A stretch of 64,000 bases of DNA from a virus: the IMG/VR virus record IMGVR_UViG_3300043773_000921, positions 24,549-88,548 of that record. One strand, written 5' to 3'. A program made the translations under genes and the position numbers. The stretch's first letter is position 1; each line of letters opens with the position of its first letter. The notes beneath the pieces were generated by a model that was given only the letters and a program-made list of their open reading frames with translations, had not been told where the DNA came from and did not search any database. Below are positions 4,215 to 26,885 of the stretch, piece after piece.

Positions 4215-4676
4215 TCACTTTAGTAAAATAGCTGTAGTAATAATCCCTGCTGCAAATCCTCCGATAATACCCCAGGTTGTCCCTATAAAGATACCTCTTT
4301 TTCGCTCATTTTTAGCATATTTAAGGCCCTGCTGCCAAAGATTATTTAACTCAGTTATTTTATCAGAACTCATATTGTACGCACGTTGGTAAGTACCTAC
4401 TCGTTCCTCTAAAGTTCGCTCTATACTCTTATGTTCTGCTATCTGGAAATCAAAAGATCTGATAGTATTTTCATTTTTATCAATGATACTCTTGTAGTCA
4501 CCAATAGTTTTTTCCTTAGACTTGATAATTCCAATCACATCATTCCACTTCTTAGTAGATATAAGCACCGTATCTTTTCTTGTCATATAGGATATGCTAA
4601 TATCGCCATAAACATGAACTGTATCAAACTGACTAAATGCCAGTATCGGAAGCAGTAAAAACAATATTACTTTCAT
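4215..4676 (-). CDS. Signal-peptide, coiled-coil, membrane protein (spanin-like)
   Basis: A 153-residue envelope protein. The N-terminus is a classical signal peptide (MKVILFLLLPILAFSQ). A long coiled-coil-like stretch (about residues 45-125, rich in K, E, I and N) follows, and then a C-terminal membrane segment (about 129-151, GIFIGTTWGIIGGFAAGIIT). This topology places the coiled coil in the periplasm and suits a spanin or lysis-helper role. The start overlaps the stop of the synthetase-like gene (ATGA), so translation is probably coupled. A second coiled-coil membrane protein at 5541-5873 in the same operon could be its partner. The lysis role is inferred; a tail chaperone or superinfection-exclusion protein is also possible. 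Confidence 0.6.
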   Translation of the reverse strand: MKVILFLLLPILAFSQFDTVHVYGDISISYMTRKDTVLISTKKWNDVIGIIKSKEKTIGDYKSIIDKNENTIRSFDFQIAEHKSIERTLEERVGTYQRAYNMSSDKITELNNLWQQGLKYAKNERKRGIFIGTTWGIIGGFAAGIITTAILLK

Positions 4677-5509
4677 ATCCGGACATCCTGTATTTTGTTT
4701 TCAAACTCTTTGATGTTCCAGGCTCTTGCCAATCTAGTCATTCCGATGCCACCACCAAAACGATCAAAGAACTTATGCTGCAAAAACTTATCTAGTTCAG
4801 CAACAACTCTTTTCTCGGTAAACAACTCAAACAATTTCTCGGCATACTTGCCACCTTCAATCGTATAAAAGTTCTCACGCATCTTCTCTGGATCACTGCT
4901 TCTCTGTGCCGAGCCAATAGTTTCCTGCCCATACATGATGACATCACACTTAGCATAAATATCAGCATACTTGCAGTACATGTTCCAGAAAGGATTAGTA
5001 CGTAATGGGAAGTTTTTCAAGAATACTACATCACCCTGCTCATCTCTCAACCTTGACTCATGCTCATTCTCGATAATCTCAGTACCATAGGCAACACAAA
5101 TATCGTTATAGTCAACATCAACACCAGTGCTAAACCCTAAATGCTGCAACAAATCCTTTTCAAGCTCTAGCATCACATTCATATCCCCCTTACTCTCAAA
5201 CTCAAACATAGGAAATATCAACTCATGCCGGCCAGGTATCGGATTCTTCTCCTGCCTGTAACTAGTACTAATACAATACACCCCATCCCAGTCAGGATTA
5301 TTAAGCAACTCATGCTCAAGCCACATCTGTCCAGTCTGTGGTAAAGGCCAGACATCTCTATTATAATCAAACACAGCAATACTATGCGGATTCTCACATG
5401 CCGCAAGTATCGATAACCTTGATTGAGTAGGAACTTCCTTGAACCCTCTGCCCCTAAAAAAAGCCCGCATCTTAGTTACGAGCAAATCATAAACCTTAGT
5501 TTCGTACAT
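4673..5509 (-). CDS. Class II aminoacyl-tRNA synthetase-like catalytic core (Asn/Asp type)
   Basis: A 278-residue protein with the three class II synthetase motifs. Motif 1 region is FFRGRGFKEVPTQSR (17-31). Motif 2 is SYRQE...GRHELIFPMFEFE (83-105), with the ATP-binding arginine R85 and E87. Motif 3 is FGGGIGMTRLARAW (251-264), with R259. The arrangement is closest to AsnRS/AspRS. No anticodon-binding OB domain is present; AsnRS and AspRS are usually 430 residues or more. Such free-standing cores include the archaeal-type asparagine synthetase that evolved from AsnRS. It could therefore make asparagine or another amide, modify an amino acid or nucleotide, or act on tRNA. The substrate cannot be read from the sequence. 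The start at 5509 is an ATG after an AT-rich leader; the end overlaps the next gene by 4 bases. Confidence 0.82.
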   Translation of the reverse strand: MYETKVYDLLVTKMRAFFRGRGFKEVPTQSRLSILAACENPHSIAVFDYNRDVWPLPQTGQMWLEHELLNNPDWDGVYCISTSYRQEKNPIPGRHELIFPMFEFESKGDMNVMLELEKDLLQHLGFSTGVDVDYNDICVAYGTEIIENEHESRLRDEQGDVVFLKNFPLRTNPFWNMYCKYADIYAKCDVIMYGQETIGSAQRSSDPEKMRENFYTIEGGKYAEKLFELFTEKRVVAELDKFLQHKFFDRFGGGIGMTRLARAWNIKEFENKIQDVRI

Positions 5510-6172: not shown

Positions 6173-6679
6173 CTACTTCTTTAACTTGTTAACAATCAAT
6201 TCTACCAACTCTGCCTTACTTAACCTACCATCGCCATCATCACCCAACAACTCCAGCAACTCAGCCTTCTTCATCTTACTATAATCAGGCTCTTTCAACA
6301 CACCAATACTCTCACTCGGAGCAGCACCAGCCTCATCCGCCTCAACAACCTCATCCCCAATAACCGGTGCAACATACTTATACCCCCCTATCTTCGGTAC
6401 AACAAACAACTTAATATCAATACTATCATCATACCTCAAACTCATAGACTGACTAGTATGACTAACAACAAAATCATACACACTCTCACTAGGAATACCA
6501 GGGCCATCAACAACCATCTTCCCATTAACCTCATAACAGTTCCACCCATCTACACCCAACAATCTTCCAACCTCCTCAACTACCCCCGGTACCCGACAAT
6601 CTTTAGTCGTAACCAAAGTACCCAACTTTACATGACCACCAGCAGCAGTCTTTACATAATAATTTATCCTTGTCTGCAT
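6173..6679 (-). CDS. Hypothetical protein with C-terminal SAP/HeH-like helix pair
   Basis: A 168-residue protein, first gene of the leftward operon. The body (1-120) is beta-rich and unrecognised. An acidic Ala/Glu linker (about 110-130) leads to a C-terminal segment, residues 135-168, with the pattern KMKKAELLELL...LSKAELVELI. This resembles the short helix-extended-helix (SAP, LEM or Rho-N) DNA- or RNA-binding unit often found at the end of phage virion proteins. Known members bind nucleic acid, but the match here is short. The start at 6679 faces the divergent plus-strand gene across a 160-base gap. Confidence 0.5.
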   Translation of the reverse strand: MQTRINYYVKTAAGGHVKLGTLVTTKDCRVPGVVEEVGRLLGVDGWNCYEVNGKMVVDGPGIPSESVYDFVVSHTSQSMSLRYDDSIDIKLFVVPKIGGYKYVAPVIGDEVVEADEAGAAPSESIGVLKEPDYSKMKKAELLELLGDDGDGRLSKAELVELIVNKLKK

Positions 6680-6839: not shown

Positions 6840-7217
6840 ATGAGCAAAGTTTCATTGGGAAAAGTAAGTGAAATCATTGAAAGAGGTGAGAAAAACTCTC
6901 CACTTTTCATGAAAGAAGGAGAACATCTTGTTAAATTGTTGGGAAAAGGCACTTGGGGGCAGAAAGCTTCGCAGTGTATCTTGACTGATAAGGGTACCAT
7001 TGGTGCCTATCAGTTGATAGACCAAATGAGAAAGGATGGTATCCTGGAAGATTTCCTGGACGAAGCAGAGTTTGTGTTTGAAACTGGTGAAGAGTTATTC
7101 GTCACCATAAATGCAAAAGCTGTAGTAGAAACTCGACTTCCTGACGAAGAAGAAGAGGAGGAAGAAGACGAAGAAGAAGTCGTCGTCGTCAAGAAGAAAA
7201 CTTCTACAAAGAAGTAA
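6840..7217 (+). CDS. Hypothetical protein with acidic-then-basic tail
   Basis: A 125-residue protein, the first rightward gene. Residues 1-100 form an unrecognised globular part. The tail is extreme: an uninterrupted Glu/Asp run (about 102-112), four valines, then KKKTSTKK. The coding DNA there is a degenerate GAA/GAG then GTC trinucleotide repeat. Acidic tails of this kind occur in nucleic-acid mimics and in SSB-like proteins. Position at the start of the early strand and its own strong terminator suggest a highly expressed early protein (inference). The start ATG is the only good one and lacks a Shine-Dalgarno. Confidence 0.6.
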   Translation: MSKVSLGKVSEIIERGEKNSPLFMKEGEHLVKLLGKGTWGQKASQCILTDKGTIGAYQLIDQMRKDGILEDFLDEAEFVFETGEELFVTINAKAVVETRLPDEEEEEEEDEEEVVVVKKKTSTKK

Positions 7218-7224
7218 GAAAGAT

Positions 7225-7253
7225 CCCTGCGCCTTCGGGCGTGGGGTTTTTTT
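7225..7253 (+). terminator. Strong intrinsic terminator
   Basis: A 9-base-pair stem (CCCTGCGCC with GGCGTGGGG, two G-T wobbles), a stable TTCG tetraloop and seven T. It lies 7 bases past the stop of the acidic-tail gene. Confidence 0.92.
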
Positions 7254-7512
7254 CAGATGTGCCTACTACTGTTAGTAAGAGGCACAACTATTAGATAATG
7301 ATTTACATATAGCGTTGACTGTCAGACTGTTAGTGCTATTGTTCCACGTGGAACATGATAGAGGAAAGGTGTGAGTGGCTACCATCTGCTGCGCATTACT
7401 CTACTCTACATCACATCGCACAACTCTATTAGTGTTATACATACTGATACTGTGAGTGATTGCGTGGGTTTTATTATAGGTGAGATTATTAACAATCAAA
7501 TATATTATTATT
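7254..7512 (+). other. Noncoding region with hairpin, short repeat and parS-like site
   Basis: No convincing gene lies here; the open frame from 7371 begins with GTG, has no family features and overlaps the next gene. The stretch holds a bulged hairpin (7259-7285: GTGCCT with AGGCAC, inner ACTA with TAGT), an 8-base direct repeat GACTGTCA/GACTGTTA (7317-7332) and the parS-like palindrome at 7340-7355. An ATTAACAAT element (7488-7496) precedes the next gene. The combination suggests a regulatory, partition or replication-related site. Confidence 0.5.
7340..7355. promoter_or_regulatory. parS: parS-like palindrome (ParB binding site candidate)
   Basis: The 16-base perfect palindrome TGTTCCACGTGGAACA matches the known bacterial chromosomal parS consensus (TGTTNCACGTGNAACA). 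It is intergenic, and the same strand encodes a ParB-like protein at 18921-20960. A 16-base perfect match in a noncoding gap is unlikely by chance. Which ParB (phage or host) binds it is unknown. Confidence 0.7.
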
Positions 7513-7806
7513 ATGGAGAGTACATTCAGTGTATATCAAGTCAGGACATATAACTATAATAGCAGAGAGCATAGCTTAGATCTTTCTTACAGCACATTAG
7601 ACAAAGCCAAAGAAAGATTATTTGAATACTGTGAGAGTAAAAATACTCACACGGAAACTGTTGACCTGGAAGGTAGGTGTGAAACATATCCTCATAATGA
7701 GGATGTTGATAACTGGATAAGTAGAGGAAAAGCGTCAATATATTATTTTTCTAAATATGGAAACTACAAATGTGTAGTTTACGTACAGGAAATATTTGTG
7801 TATTGA
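7513..7806 (+). CDS. Hypothetical 97-residue protein
   Basis: A small soluble protein, MESTFSVYQVRTYN..., rich in Y, S and E. The frame is open upstream to 7480, but the ATG at 7513 is preferred. It follows an AT-rich leader (TATTATTATT) like other genes here, and the upstream residues are low quality. No motif recognised. It is a single gene between the parS-like region and a weak terminator. Confidence 0.55.
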   Translation: MESTFSVYQVRTYNYNSREHSLDLSYSTLDKAKERLFEYCESKNTHTETVDLEGRCETYPHNEDVDNWISRGKASIYYFSKYGNYKCVVYVQEIFVY

Positions 7807-7813
7807 TTTCATT

Positions 7814-7850
7814 GCGGGCATGCTATTGTAGTGTGCCTGCTTATTATATT
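7814..7850 (+). terminator. Probable intrinsic terminator
   Basis: A 7-base-pair stem (GCGGGCA at 7814-7820 with TGCCTGC at 7834-7840, one wobble) with a small inner CTA/TAG pair, followed by TTATTATATTT. The T-rich tail is interrupted, so it may be weak. The remaining bases to 7910 are an AT-rich leader with another 5-base-pair hairpin (TGCCT/AGGCA). Confidence 0.55.
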
Positions 7851-7910
7851 TATTTACTGCCTCCGATATAATGTTGTAGGCATTTCTTTAACACTTAAAA
7901 AACTTTACTA

Positions 7911-8159
7911 ATGAAAAACTTGTCAAAAAAACATTTGCTTCGCTGGCTTATGGATCAGCAGCACAAGTTCACTCAAGGCAATAACCTCGAGGAGACAGAA
8001 CTTATTGTAGGATACTTTAACGGTGTATTGAGTGCAGAGTTTATATGCCGTAATGGCTATGGCTCTGTATGGAGTACTAACAGATATTTGTCTGTTAAGT
8101 GTCCGAAATGTTTTACTCATTTGTTTGCGGACAATAGTCCAATAACATTTGATTTATAA
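7911..8159 (+). CDS. Hypothetical 82-residue protein with one CxxC
   Basis: A small basic protein, MKNLSKKHLLRWLMDQQ..., with a single KCPKC near the C-terminus (residues 63-67), which alone would not form a full zinc site. No membrane segment. It stands alone between a terminator-like hairpin and the structured noncoding region. Function unknown. Confidence 0.55.
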   Translation: MKNLSKKHLLRWLMDQQHKFTQGNNLEETELIVGYFNGVLSAEFICRNGYGSVWSTNRYLSVKCPKCFTHLFADNSPITFDL

Positions 8160-8167
8160 GATTTACA

Positions 8168-8422
8168 ACCTGAGTTTACAGGTGCGAGGATAGTATGTAC
8201 TATCCGTTATTAACAATTATTTATAACCATTAAATGTAATCCCGTAAGATTACAACTACTATGAGCTTTTAAGCAAAAGTAAAGTGCCTTTTAGTACGTT
8301 GAGTTCCTTAAGTCCTAGGCAAGGTCTATTCGATATTGAATAGTAGGGTAAGACTCAACCAGGTATTCTCATTATCTGCCACAAAACAAGTTCCTAATCC
8401 TATAAGAGAAATGGATGGGAAC
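8168..8422 (+). ncRNA. Candidate structured noncoding RNA
   Basis: The 342 bases between the flanking genes have no usable reading frame but contain at least six local hairpins: ACCTG/CAGGT (8168-8183), GGATAG/CTATCC (8188-8205), TGTAATC/GATTACA (8235-8254), CTTTT/AAAAG (8266-8279), CTATTC/GAATAG (8326-8343) and GTTCC+ATCC/GGAT+GGAAC (8390-8422). An outer helix GTTGAGT/ACTCAAC (8298-8304 with 8353-8359) encloses CCTT/AAGG and the CTATTC hairpin, which makes a branched domain. Four of the loops are exactly six bases. It matches no RNA family I can name: it lacks tRNA, tmRNA or group I intron landmarks. It could be a free RNA, a long leader of the 8502 gene, or a replication site. The strand is inferred from its neighbours. 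Confidence 0.5.
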
Positions 8423-8501
8423 ATTTTAAAACAAATATTATTATAAAACAAGTATGCGTGTAGAGCTCGAGCACGTGTAAGGATGACAAGAGTATATAGT
8501 T

Positions 8502-8741
8502 ATGTGGGTAACACAAAATCAAATGGATGATACTACATTGAACAAAATGTTTAGTCGTTGGAATCAAGCATTAGCTAATGGAGAGATAACTGACATTGAT
8601 AATACTACAGAAATGTGGTATGGTGAGTTAGTTATGACACACGAAGATGGTATAGATTATATAACAGCACCTATACAGAAATATGATAAAGAAGGGTATA
8701 TAGATTTTGTTGTTAATGTTTCAATACCATTTGAAATATGA
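8502..8741 (+). CDS. Hypothetical acidic 79-residue protein
   Basis: A small acidic soluble protein (MWVTQNQMDDTTLNKMF...) with no recognised motif. It is the first gene of a run extending to about 10972, just after the structured noncoding region. An ATG at 8523 (MDDTTLN) is an alternative start. Its stop overlaps the start of a 48-residue membrane protein. Confidence 0.5.
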   Translation: MWVTQNQMDDTTLNKMFSRWNQALANGEITDIDNTTEMWYGELVMTHEDGIDYITAPIQKYDKEGYIDFVVNVSIPFEI

Positions 8742-18920: not shown

Positions 18921-20960
18921 ATGGCTTCTAATATTAAAATTAAAAACGAAATGTTAAAAGTAACTCCAGATTTGCTTGACTTTTCTATACCTAACCCTAG
19001 GTTTGCTGGCATAGATTATGACGTAAACGATGCTACTCCATATGGTGATGCTATTGATAAAATGTATGGTTCGATGGTTGAGACCTATAAAAAGACAGGT
19101 TCTTTATTGCTGCAGCCAATCATATGCGAGCAAGTAAAAGGTAAGTATGTTGTTCGTGCCGGCTACACTAGAGCAATGACTTTTGTTACTCGTTATGAAG
19201 ATTTGTGTAAGGAGATTGGCGCTACTGCAGAAATACCAGTTTATATCATGGATGGCATTAACATTGTCGATTCATTGACTGAGAATGTATTGCGTAGTGA
19301 GCAACACTTTATTACATTGGCCCATGCAATCAGACAGGCTGTTGCTGTTAAAGGCGTGACACTACCAAAGATTGCTAGTCAGCTTGGCATTTCTGTAAAT
19401 AGAGCAACATCACTTCGCAAGATAGCTGCACTGAACAAAGAAGCTATCAAGCTTTGCTTTGAAGGTGTTATCGATGAGTCTGGTGCCACTGCATTGTGCG
19501 ATATGCCTGATGCTATACAGAAGATGATTATTGACGAGATTTATGATCGTGATTTGCACACAGAAGGAGAAGCACTTGATGACAGAGAAATAGTGAGATT
19601 GTCTAACTATTGCATGCCGGAAATATCTGAAAGTGTTCCAGAAGAAAGCTTTGTTGATTTGTATGGTAATGTGCATCCAAATATCAAAGAAGAAAAATGG
19701 TACATCAACGTAGGTAATATGTTTGATAGGCCTAGAACATCTGATAGCGATGCAACAAAAGCTAGAGCAAGAGCATACTGGGAAAAGTTTATCGAAGAAA
19801 ACAAACTCAAAGTTGTTGACAGATATGACATCATGGGCTATATATCATGCGATATGGGTACTCATCCTGAAGAAGTTGCCTGCTGGGATTATGATGGCAA
19901 CATCAGGTTCTTTGTTAAGCCATCTTTGATTGAAAGCGTTAAAGCAGAAGAAAGCTATGTTGAGAAAAAGCAAGATGCTGCTATTGAGCGTGTCAATCGT
20001 AAGATTACTAGCTTAAAAGAACAAGCAAGAAAAGATGTTGTATTCAGATTGATGAAACAATTAAATCAAGATGGAGCATCACTAGATTATGCTGTACTTG
20101 CTTTCTTTAAAGGTATGCATATCAACAATGCTTTAAGGACTTGTATCGAGCATTTACTTGGTGACAGCATTAGTAATGGCGCAGACCTTGTTGATAAAGC
20201 TGGTGCATCTTATGCAATGACTGTGTTTCTTCAGGCCAATCTGATGACTATGGCATCTTATACTCCTAATGTTCTTAGTATGTTCTTTAAAGACAATAAC
20301 ATTGATTTGGAGAAAGAATACGAGAATGAATACAGTTCTATAGAGCTTAAGCGTGCAGATATGACTGAGAAAGCAACAGAAAGATCTGAAGAGATTGATG
20401 ATGATGCTAAAGCAAGACGCAAGTTTGTTGTAGATATGTGCTACACTAATGTCTATGAAACAGGCAAGAGTGTCTACAATTCTATCGATGAAGCTGATGA
20501 AGCATTGCTTACTTACATCTGCAAGAACATTGGTATTCCATACAAGGGTAGTGAGTTTATCATGAGAATGCGTGTTAAGAATCTAGTAAATCAGATACTA
20601 AACACTATTGACGATGATGCTGATGCTGAAAGTATGCTTGCTGGACTTAAAATGCTAGATACTTGTAAGTCTAGATCTATTAGAATGTTTAACGACGCTA
20701 CAAAAGAAGAAACTCTTAACGGTACAGACTTAAACACTGAACTAAAAGAACTTGCTTCAATCCTGCATGAATATGACTTTGTCAGTGCAAATGCAATGTT
20801 GCAGACATTTGATATCAAAGGCATCATAAAGTCTAGTGATACAGAGCAGAGAAGAAAAGCAATGTTTGTTTCGTTCTTTACGAAAGTGAAAGAATGCTTT
20901 AACTTCAAAACAGCATTTGCTTACAAAAACGATAAGAATAAATACCAAGTTATTAGCTAA
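18921..20960 (+). CDS. Large ParB-like DNA-binding protein
   Basis: A 679-residue protein. Its N-terminal third matches ParB/Spo0J. A nuclease-like/CTPase-type domain has GYTRAMTF (81-88) at the GxRR position and ENVLRSEQ (121-128) at the ENxxR position. A helix-turn-helix follows at about 147-170 (TLPKIASQLGISVNRATSLRKIAAL). ParB proteins bind parS, load with CTP and spread on DNA; ParB-like domains also occur in phage transcription and nuclease proteins. The remaining 480 residues are highly charged, probably helical, and unlike any ParB C-terminus I know. The usual ParB is about 280-330 residues. An exact parS-like site lies 11.6 kb upstream. No ParA ATPase is seen in the window. It follows a terminator, so it likely has its own promoter. 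Confidence 0.8.
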   Translation: MASNIKIKNEMLKVTPDLLDFSIPNPRFAGIDYDVNDATPYGDAIDKMYGSMVETYKKTGSLLLQPIICEQVKGKYVVRAGYTRAMTFVTRYEDLCKEIGATAEIPVYIMDGINIVDSLTENVLRSEQHFITLAHAIRQAVAVKGVTLPKIASQLGISVNRATSLRKIAALNKEAIKLCFEGVIDESGATALCDMPDAIQKMIIDEIYDRDLHTEGEALDDREIVRLSNYCMPEISESVPEESFVDLYGNVHPNIKEEKWYINVGNMFDRPRTSDSDATKARARAYWEKFIEENKLKVVDRYDIMGYISCDMGTHPEEVACWDYDGNIRFFVKPSLIESVKAEESYVEKKQDAAIERVNRKITSLKEQARKDVVFRLMKQLNQDGASLDYAVLAFFKGMHINNALRTCIEHLLGDSISNGADLVDKAGASYAMTVFLQANLMTMASYTPNVLSMFFKDNNIDLEKEYENEYSSIELKRADMTEKATERSEEIDDDAKARRKFVVDMCYTNVYETGKSVYNSIDEADEALLTYICKNIGIPYKGSEFIMRMRVKNLVNQILNTIDDDADAESMLAGLKMLDTCKSRSIRMFNDATKEETLNGTDLNTELKELASILHEYDFVSANAMLQTFDIKGIIKSSDTEQRRKAMFVSFFTKVKECFNFKTAFAYKNDKNKYQVIS

Positions 20961-25608: not shown

Positions 25609-26025
25609 ATGATAGAAGTACGCAGAAAAACTTACACATTGCTACTTAGTTTTAATCCTTGTGAAATCTTTGACTACTATGGTGAAAGAGAGATGCACGG
25701 TTTGAAATATGACGAATGTGTAATGCACAAAAACAACAAACAGCAGGCATACATTGCAGGCTTTTCTAACTATGTTCCTGTACATTTAACAGAAGCAGAA
25801 AAAGATGATTTTGAGTACGAGCATGGTGATGATTTCTTTGTCTTTATTAATCTTAGCAGATGTAATAGTACAGTTGAAACTGTAAGACTTATCTTTCATG
25901 AACTAATGCACAGATCATTTGAACTACATGACTGGGATATTAATAAGGAAGAAGAGATTATTACTTGGGCAGACGAAGAAACAGAGGAAGTATTCAAGAT
26001 TGTAAAAGAAAACCTAAAGCTATGA
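25609..26025 (+). CDS. Small HExxH metallopeptidase-like protein
   Basis: A 138-residue protein with a zinc-binding motif HELMH (H97, E98, H101) after a hydrophobic strand (TVRLIFHELMH), preceded by FFVFINLSRCNST and followed by acidic residues (EEEIITWADEE, 114-124) that could supply the third ligand. This is the usual build of small phage and plasmid metallopeptidases such as ImmA-like proteins. It may cleave a host protein or act on a repressor, but the target is unknown. Its stop overlaps the SPL-like gene start (ATGA). Confidence 0.65.
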   Translation: MIEVRRKTYTLLLSFNPCEIFDYYGEREMHGLKYDECVMHKNNKQQAYIAGFSNYVPVHLTEAEKDDFEYEHGDDFFVFINLSRCNSTVETVRLIFHELMHRSFELHDWDINKEEEIITWADEETEEVFKIVKENLKL

Positions 26026-26885
26026 TTACAAAAGTAGTTAGAAAAGCATTAGATATAAAACCATCTGGAAGGAGTAGTGATTTCATTACTCCTTCTTTCA
26101 TTCATGGGTGTTTATATAAGTGCCATTATTGTTACATGCGCCGTAATAAACCAGAAGGATTGTCTGTGGCTACCAACGTAGATGAAATACTAGATGTAAT
26201 TAACAAGCATGCTTTATTTACTCCAGTTACAAAGCCTAACCAGACGCATCCAGTGTACATCACCTACGATATTTCTTGCAACGAAGACTTTGCCTTGCAC
26301 TTGAAGTATCACGAATGGCAGAAGATATTTGATTTCTTTGTAGAGCATCCTATTGCCATGGCTACATTTGCTACAAAGTATGTAAATCAAAAGCTGCTAG
26401 AATACAATCCAAATAGAAAGATACGGATTAGGTTTTCTCTAATGCCTCAATCACTATCCAACATATTAGAGCCAGACACATCAAGGATTATAGACCGCAT
26501 TAAGGCTATCAATGATTTTTATGCTGCAGGCTATGACGTTCACATTAACTTTAGCCCTATACTGGCATTGGCAGAATCAAAAGCTTTATACACAGAGCTG
26601 TTTGAACAAGTCAATGACATTGTAGATGATGAAATAAAAAAGCACGTTCTCGCAGAATGTATCATGCTAACTCATAACGAGAAAATGCATATACATAACT
26701 TAGGGAACGCGCCGGCTGACGTGGAAAATCTATTATGGAATCCAGAATGGCAAGAGAATAAAACTAGTTCTTTTGGGTCTGAGAATATCAGGTATCGTCA
26801 CGACTTGAAAGCAAAACTTGTCAATCGTTTTGTATCTTTACATGATAGCATCATCCCTTGGAACAAAATACGCTACATCTTTTAA
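26022..26885 (+). CDS. splB: Spore photoproduct lyase-like radical SAM protein
   Basis: A 287-residue radical SAM protein; the ATG at 26022 overlaps the previous stop and is preferred to an upstream one at 25965. The cluster motif CLYKCHYC at C30, C34 and C37 (CxxxCxxC) binds [4Fe-4S], and TPSFIHGC precedes it as in SPL. ISCNED (84-89) with C86 corresponds to the conserved cysteine region of SPL (the hydrogen-donor cysteine, ~43 residues after the cluster in Bacillus; ~49 here). SPL reverses UV-induced spore photoproduct in DNA by direct thymine repair. Bacterial SPL is about 340 residues; this one is shorter. A related phage-encoded enzyme acting on other modified bases or DNA lesions is possible. 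It ends the plus strand, with the minus-strand amidase 6 bases away. Confidence 0.78.
   Translation: MITKVVRKALDIKPSGRSSDFITPSFIHGCLYKCHYCYMRRNKPEGLSVATNVDEILDVINKHALFTPVTKPNQTHPVYITYDISCNEDFALHLKYHEWQKIFDFFVEHPIAMATFATKYVNQKLLEYNPNRKIRIRFSLMPQSLSNILEPDTSRIIDRIKAINDFYAAGYDVHINFSPILALAESKALYTELFEQVNDIVDDEIKKHVLAECIMLTHNEKMHIHNLGNAPADVENLLWNPEWQENKTSSFGSENIRYRHDLKAKLVNRFVSLHDSIIPWNKIRYIF

Follow-up and report, generated by a model that had tools for sequence, protein, structure and literature searches.

The PeSL cassettes are reportedly the subject of work by Arbiol et al. in 2010 and Comeau et al. in 2014. They are promoter-early stem-loop cassettes of T4-like phages, as described in PMC4503421. 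The locus considered here, positions 8168-8422 of a 64-kb window (the whole stretch of DNA that was analysed) within the 88,548-base virus record of an 88-kb uncultured phage, resembles them in that short, conserved intergenic stem-loop units lie between unrelated small genes of a hypervariable region, placed for gene swapping. So could this locus be a cassette of the same class? A stem-loop is indeed found in the intergenic spacer of a hypervariable region, and one unit, the leader at 8445-8504, recurs between unrelated genes, three times in two phages. However, an early promoter is not apparent inside the unit: sigma-70-like promoters in the spacer are at chance level, although a phage- or host-specific promoter may be present, and the spacer holds no TTG-n-TAnnTTTG promoter motif. 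Nor was a U-tract or intrinsic terminator found among the hairpins of 8160-8501, and because both the early promoter and the U-tract terminator were looked for and not found, the spacer is not classed as a PeSL. Furthermore, what is conserved here is a 5' leader that covaries and reaches a start codon, and the phage belongs to a different, unassigned group.

GOLLD and ROOL are established, widespread families of RNAs much longer than 8168-8422. The stretch shares with these large phage-borne structured RNAs (PMC12286853) the character of a hairpin-rich non-coding phage sequence. It differs from both in lacking an Rfam match. Translational operator hairpins are stem-loops with a conserved loop, located a short distance upstream of the start codon. 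The leader at 8445-8504 is likewise a stem-loop with a conserved loop just upstream of a start codon, comparable to such operators in the 5' leaders of phages, of which the T4 systems reviewed in PMC3014915 are an example, but it precedes unrelated genes and is a putative element with no known binding protein. Judged by sequence comparison, 8168-8422 is a composite, and its reading as one new RNA is not supported.

A hairpin-rich gap between two orphan genes

The leftward genes of the phage reach to 6679 and the rightward ones begin at 6840, the cumulative GC skew has a local minimum at 6669, and 8168-8422 sits near the beginning of the rightward gene block. No non-coding gap in the window is longer than the one that holds the stretch (8160-8501, 342 nt). 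This gap is bounded on the plus strand by an orphan ORF of 82 aa (7911-8159; no family, no match in phage records) and another of 79 aa (8502-8741; no PHROG, no Pfam match above cut-off and nothing similar in phage records). Elsewhere in the window, the minus strand carries one open frame (30755-53248) that, at 7497 aa, far exceeds the other genes in size; the protein encoded at 4673-5509 resembles Asn/Asp-tRNA ligases or asparagine synthetase A (phrog_29758) and is common to Prochlorococcus phages and many IMG/VR contigs; and the product of 25965-26885 belongs to the spore photoproduct lyase family, with TIGR03886 below its cut-off and Pfam SPL above cut-off.

An earlier note, made from the sequence alone, had proposed that 8168-8422 is a possible new structured RNA, free of open frames and of tRNA or tmRNA landmarks. 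The longest stop-free run is indeed 34 of 85 codons, with no long frame; ARAGORN is negative; and the Rfam search that the note had suggested matched no family. The stems are present where the note had placed them: two perfect stem-loops, ACCTG-AGTTTA-CAGGT (8168-8183) and GGATAGT-ATGT-ACTATCC (8188-8205), followed by TGTAATC-CCGTAA-GATTACA (8235-8254), CTTTT-AAGC-AAAAG (8266-8279), GTGC-CTTTTA-GTAC (about 8284-8297) and CTATTC-GATATT-GAATAG (8326-8343). The GTTGAGT/ACTCAAC helix, taken to close the structure, also exists but closes only 8298-8359 (62 nt) and not the whole stretch.

The enrichment in hairpins is beyond what shuffling of the sequence yields. Perfect hairpins, defined by a Watson-Crick stem of at least 5 bp and a loop of 3-8, number seven against 1.8 expected from 2000 dinucleotide shuffles (P = 0.003), and three of the stems of 5 bp or more enclose a six-base loop, against 0.26 expected (P = 0.0035), these P values being optimistic because the tests were picked after the feature had been seen. 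The four six-base loops that had been remarked on are likewise confirmed, for stems of at least 4 bp (0.96 expected, P = 0.023). A first scan of the 64 kb reached the count of seven perfect hairpins in two overlapping scanning windows only; in a finer scan that included related records, 18 of 4634 were equally dense, those inspected being mostly coding, so that the stretch is enriched in hairpins yet not unique.

What the relatives retain

Protein and DNA scans yielded four related IMG/VR contigs, L082, L084 (= L002), L003 (= L083) and L004. Common to all of them are the flanks of a variable orphan-gene region (7512-8735, plus strand) that contains 8168-8422. This region is 1.2 kb here and about 0.96 kb, with other ORFs, in L082; it shrinks to 225 nt with one small ORF in L084 and to essentially nothing in L004. 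The ORFs inside it are unrelated between phages and show no family match above cut-off. Another spacer of the variable region, at 7807-7910, holds a strong 12-pair hairpin (7814-7840; spacer RNA z -4.2).

For the stretch itself the nearest relative is L082, and in the other relatives the entire 8168-8422 is absent. The L082 equivalents of 8157-8205 (94% identity) and 8430-8504 (91%) lie only 10 nt apart, and hence about 224 nt, most of 8168-8422, have no counterpart there; the first 38 nt of the stretch almost adjoin the leader of the next gene in that phage. It is this omission of the middle that speaks against a single unit, whereas the non-coding, hairpin-rich character of the stretch and its lack of an Rfam match stand.

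The part retained upstream is a two-hairpin 3' element (8160-8205, plus strand) directly after the stop codon of ORF 7911-8159, with the consensus ACCTG(AGTTTA)CAGGT + GGRTAGT(ATGT)ACTATCC. It is 94% kept at L082 9191-9239, behind an ORF that is non-homologous to ORF 7911-8159 at the equivalent position. The predicted RNA fold has z -2.85 here and -2.48 in L082, and the single stem substitution between the element and this one relative turns A-U into G-U. No further viral contig carries 8160-8205, and a covariance model searched against the related records recovered only its own two source copies.

The middle segment (8206-8422, plus strand, with an end uncertain by about 7 nt) carries at least five further hairpins and occurs in this phage only; when the second L082 leader is aligned, its boundary shifts to about 8423. 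This segment of about 217 nt was not found in L082, L084, L002, L003 or L004, so that the related records offer no homologue in which compensating changes could be sought, and phage and plasmid records gave nothing beyond a chance-level match (blastn to Klebsiella phage holin genes, E = 0.03, judged chance). A decayed gene was also considered, and tblastn of three plus-strand frames and one minus-strand frame returned no protein remnant. The segment folds with z -2.0 as RNA and -2.25 as DNA. The long hairpin inside it that is closed by GTTGAGT/ACTCAAC (8298-8359, plus strand) folds as RNA with z -2.57 on the plus and -2.97 on the minus strand, and no homologue of it was found. A tRNA-like reading of this hairpin, suggested by its 7-bp acceptor-like helix and a D-arm-like CCTT/AAGG, was rejected given that it has no T arm and that ARAGORN and Rfam are negative; an integron attC reading was rejected on sequence, the order of GTTRRRY/RYYYAAC being reversed.

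A covarying leader next to the stretch

Just outside 8168-8422, in the same gap, lies a conserved 5' leader (8445-8504, plus strand) that ends with the ATG of ORF 8502-8741. Its 9-bp stem is formed by 8453-8461 and 8471-8479, with the loop AGAGCTCGA, and is followed by AGGATGACAAGAGTATA. There is one copy here and two in L082 (9265-9324 and 9544-9604), the three preceding three different, mutually unrelated ORFs; they align with one 1-nt gap only, and the distance from the stem end to the ATG is 22-23 nt in all of them. The loop and the downstream AGGATGACAAGAGTAT are nearly invariant. Ten substitutions separate the two stem types and pairing is preserved in every case: of nine pairs, four show double compensatory changes, two one-sided changes and three none, with no pair broken. 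When the partners were slid by 1-3 columns as a control, at most one double change resulted, and 6 of 500 shuffles matched the covariation, which amounts to about one independent comparison, given that the three copies come from two phages and two of them have an identical stem. The hairpin alone is thermodynamically not exceptional. The predicted leader stem is the sole covariation-supported structure in the gap 8160-8501.

The leader is also unusual in its setting, as most neighbouring genes of the region begin with plain A/T-rich sequence and show no obvious Shine-Dalgarno sequence, a trait from which a host among the Bacteroidota might be guessed. How far does it extend? A covariance model searched against the related records recovered exactly the three known copies and no others, and in scans of viral contigs L082 alone had genuine copies, the remaining matches lying in unrelated contexts. 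Covariance-model searches gave no match in 77 loci of other phages or in 296 genomes of one bacterial order. Many bacterial contigs were among the matches listed in a pattern scan of genome contigs; since the specificity of the pattern is low, these are taken as chance.

A second non-coding element, at 7250-7480

Another non-coding stretch, 7250-7480, is present in all relatives and is 93% identical between this phage and L084, compared with 74% for the adjacent gene. Its RNAalifold consensus comprises 83 pairs, of which 98.5% are kept, with two double and nine single compatible changes, a conservation that is only suggestive because the structure was derived from the same sequences. As a cis element or RNA common to the whole family, this stretch is a better candidate than 8168-8422, and both it and the leader 8445-8504 are better RNA candidates than 8168-8422.

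Two further features belong to this neighbourhood. An intrinsic terminator lies at 7225-7246, and its stem covaries between relatives, with C-G in this phage and L082 and T-A in L084 and L004. A parS-like palindrome, TGTTCCACGTGGAACA, occurs at 7340-7355, in a single copy in each of four phage records, and the 679-aa protein encoded at 18921-20960 has a weak Noc/ParB-like match at its N-terminus; together, the two possibly represent a phage partition system.

Possible roles of the stretch

The reading that we consider moderately probable is that of a regulatory spacer that separates two orphan genes, where small rightward genes form a mosaic region near the transcription divergence. It is suggested by the location of conserved spacer modules between exchanged genes, the modules being common to phages while the ORFs on either side differ. 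The hairpins at 8160-8205 would act at the mRNA 3' end, in stability or processing; the leader, which probably acts as a 5'-UTR element, would control or aid translation of whichever small gene comes next; the common modules would provide homology for swapping neighbouring small genes; and the middle segment, with no sign of a discrete functional RNA, would be an acquired or expanded spacer. All the same, the excess of hairpins in this segment may point to a function that the explanation does not cover, and the segment might instead be ancestral and lost from the other phages.

Alternatively, the interval from roughly 8168 to 8422 could be transcribed as a separate, trans-acting structured RNA that represents a new family. 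Such a gene would account for a hairpin density that is among the highest of the genome and significant against shuffles, for the location in the longest non-coding gap and for the negative Rfam result. The excess in RNA folding energy is modest (z -2.3 over 255 nt, equalled by 6 of 200 shuffles), promoter consensus matches are not above chance and no terminator marks the end of such a gene. The nearest relative keeps both edges without the middle, which, having no homologue, offers no covariation; moreover, the stems are largely Watson-Crick and the minus strand folds about equally well. We regard an RNA gene as unlikely. Could the palindromes then be a matter of chance, in an AT-rich orphan spacer that is a decayed gene or neutral sequence? 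In RNA folding the stretch ranks only 46 to 190 of 448 among the 120-nt segments of the first 27 kb, coding sequence elsewhere reaches the same hairpin count, and the relatives dispense with the segment; against this stand the shuffling results for hairpins and hexaloops, features picked post hoc though they are, and the four searched frames devoid of protein remnants. We regard chance as rather unlikely.

The near-equivalence of the two strands and the mostly Watson-Crick stems would be expected of an element acting at the level of DNA, where single-stranded or cruciform hairpins would serve to initiate replication, or in packaging or recombination, close to where gene direction and GC skew switch. 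Folding as single-stranded DNA is more exceptional than folding as RNA (z -3.55 and -3.35, matched by 0 of 200 shuffles), and the local skew minimum is about 1.5 kb away. This minimum, however, tracks gene direction and is located at 6669 rather than here, close relatives that also must replicate and package lack the stretch, and a better-conserved candidate is available in 7250-7480, all of which leaves a DNA element quite improbable. Comparably doubtful is the idea that 8160-8504 as a whole is one cassette of a new kind, in which the pair of 3' hairpins, an array of hairpins that can expand, and the covarying leader would move jointly between orphan genes of this phage group and set the expression of the gene behind.

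Implications

For 8168-8422 the outcome is mostly corrective, as the comparatively supported structure adjoins the stretch and does not lie inside it. In uncultured phages small orphan genes are exchanged rapidly, and the way in which a new arrival comes to be expressed is seldom evident. A covarying leader that is retained amid such gene turnover would, if real, represent a ready-made expression module and, at the same time, a marker of gene-exchange sites.
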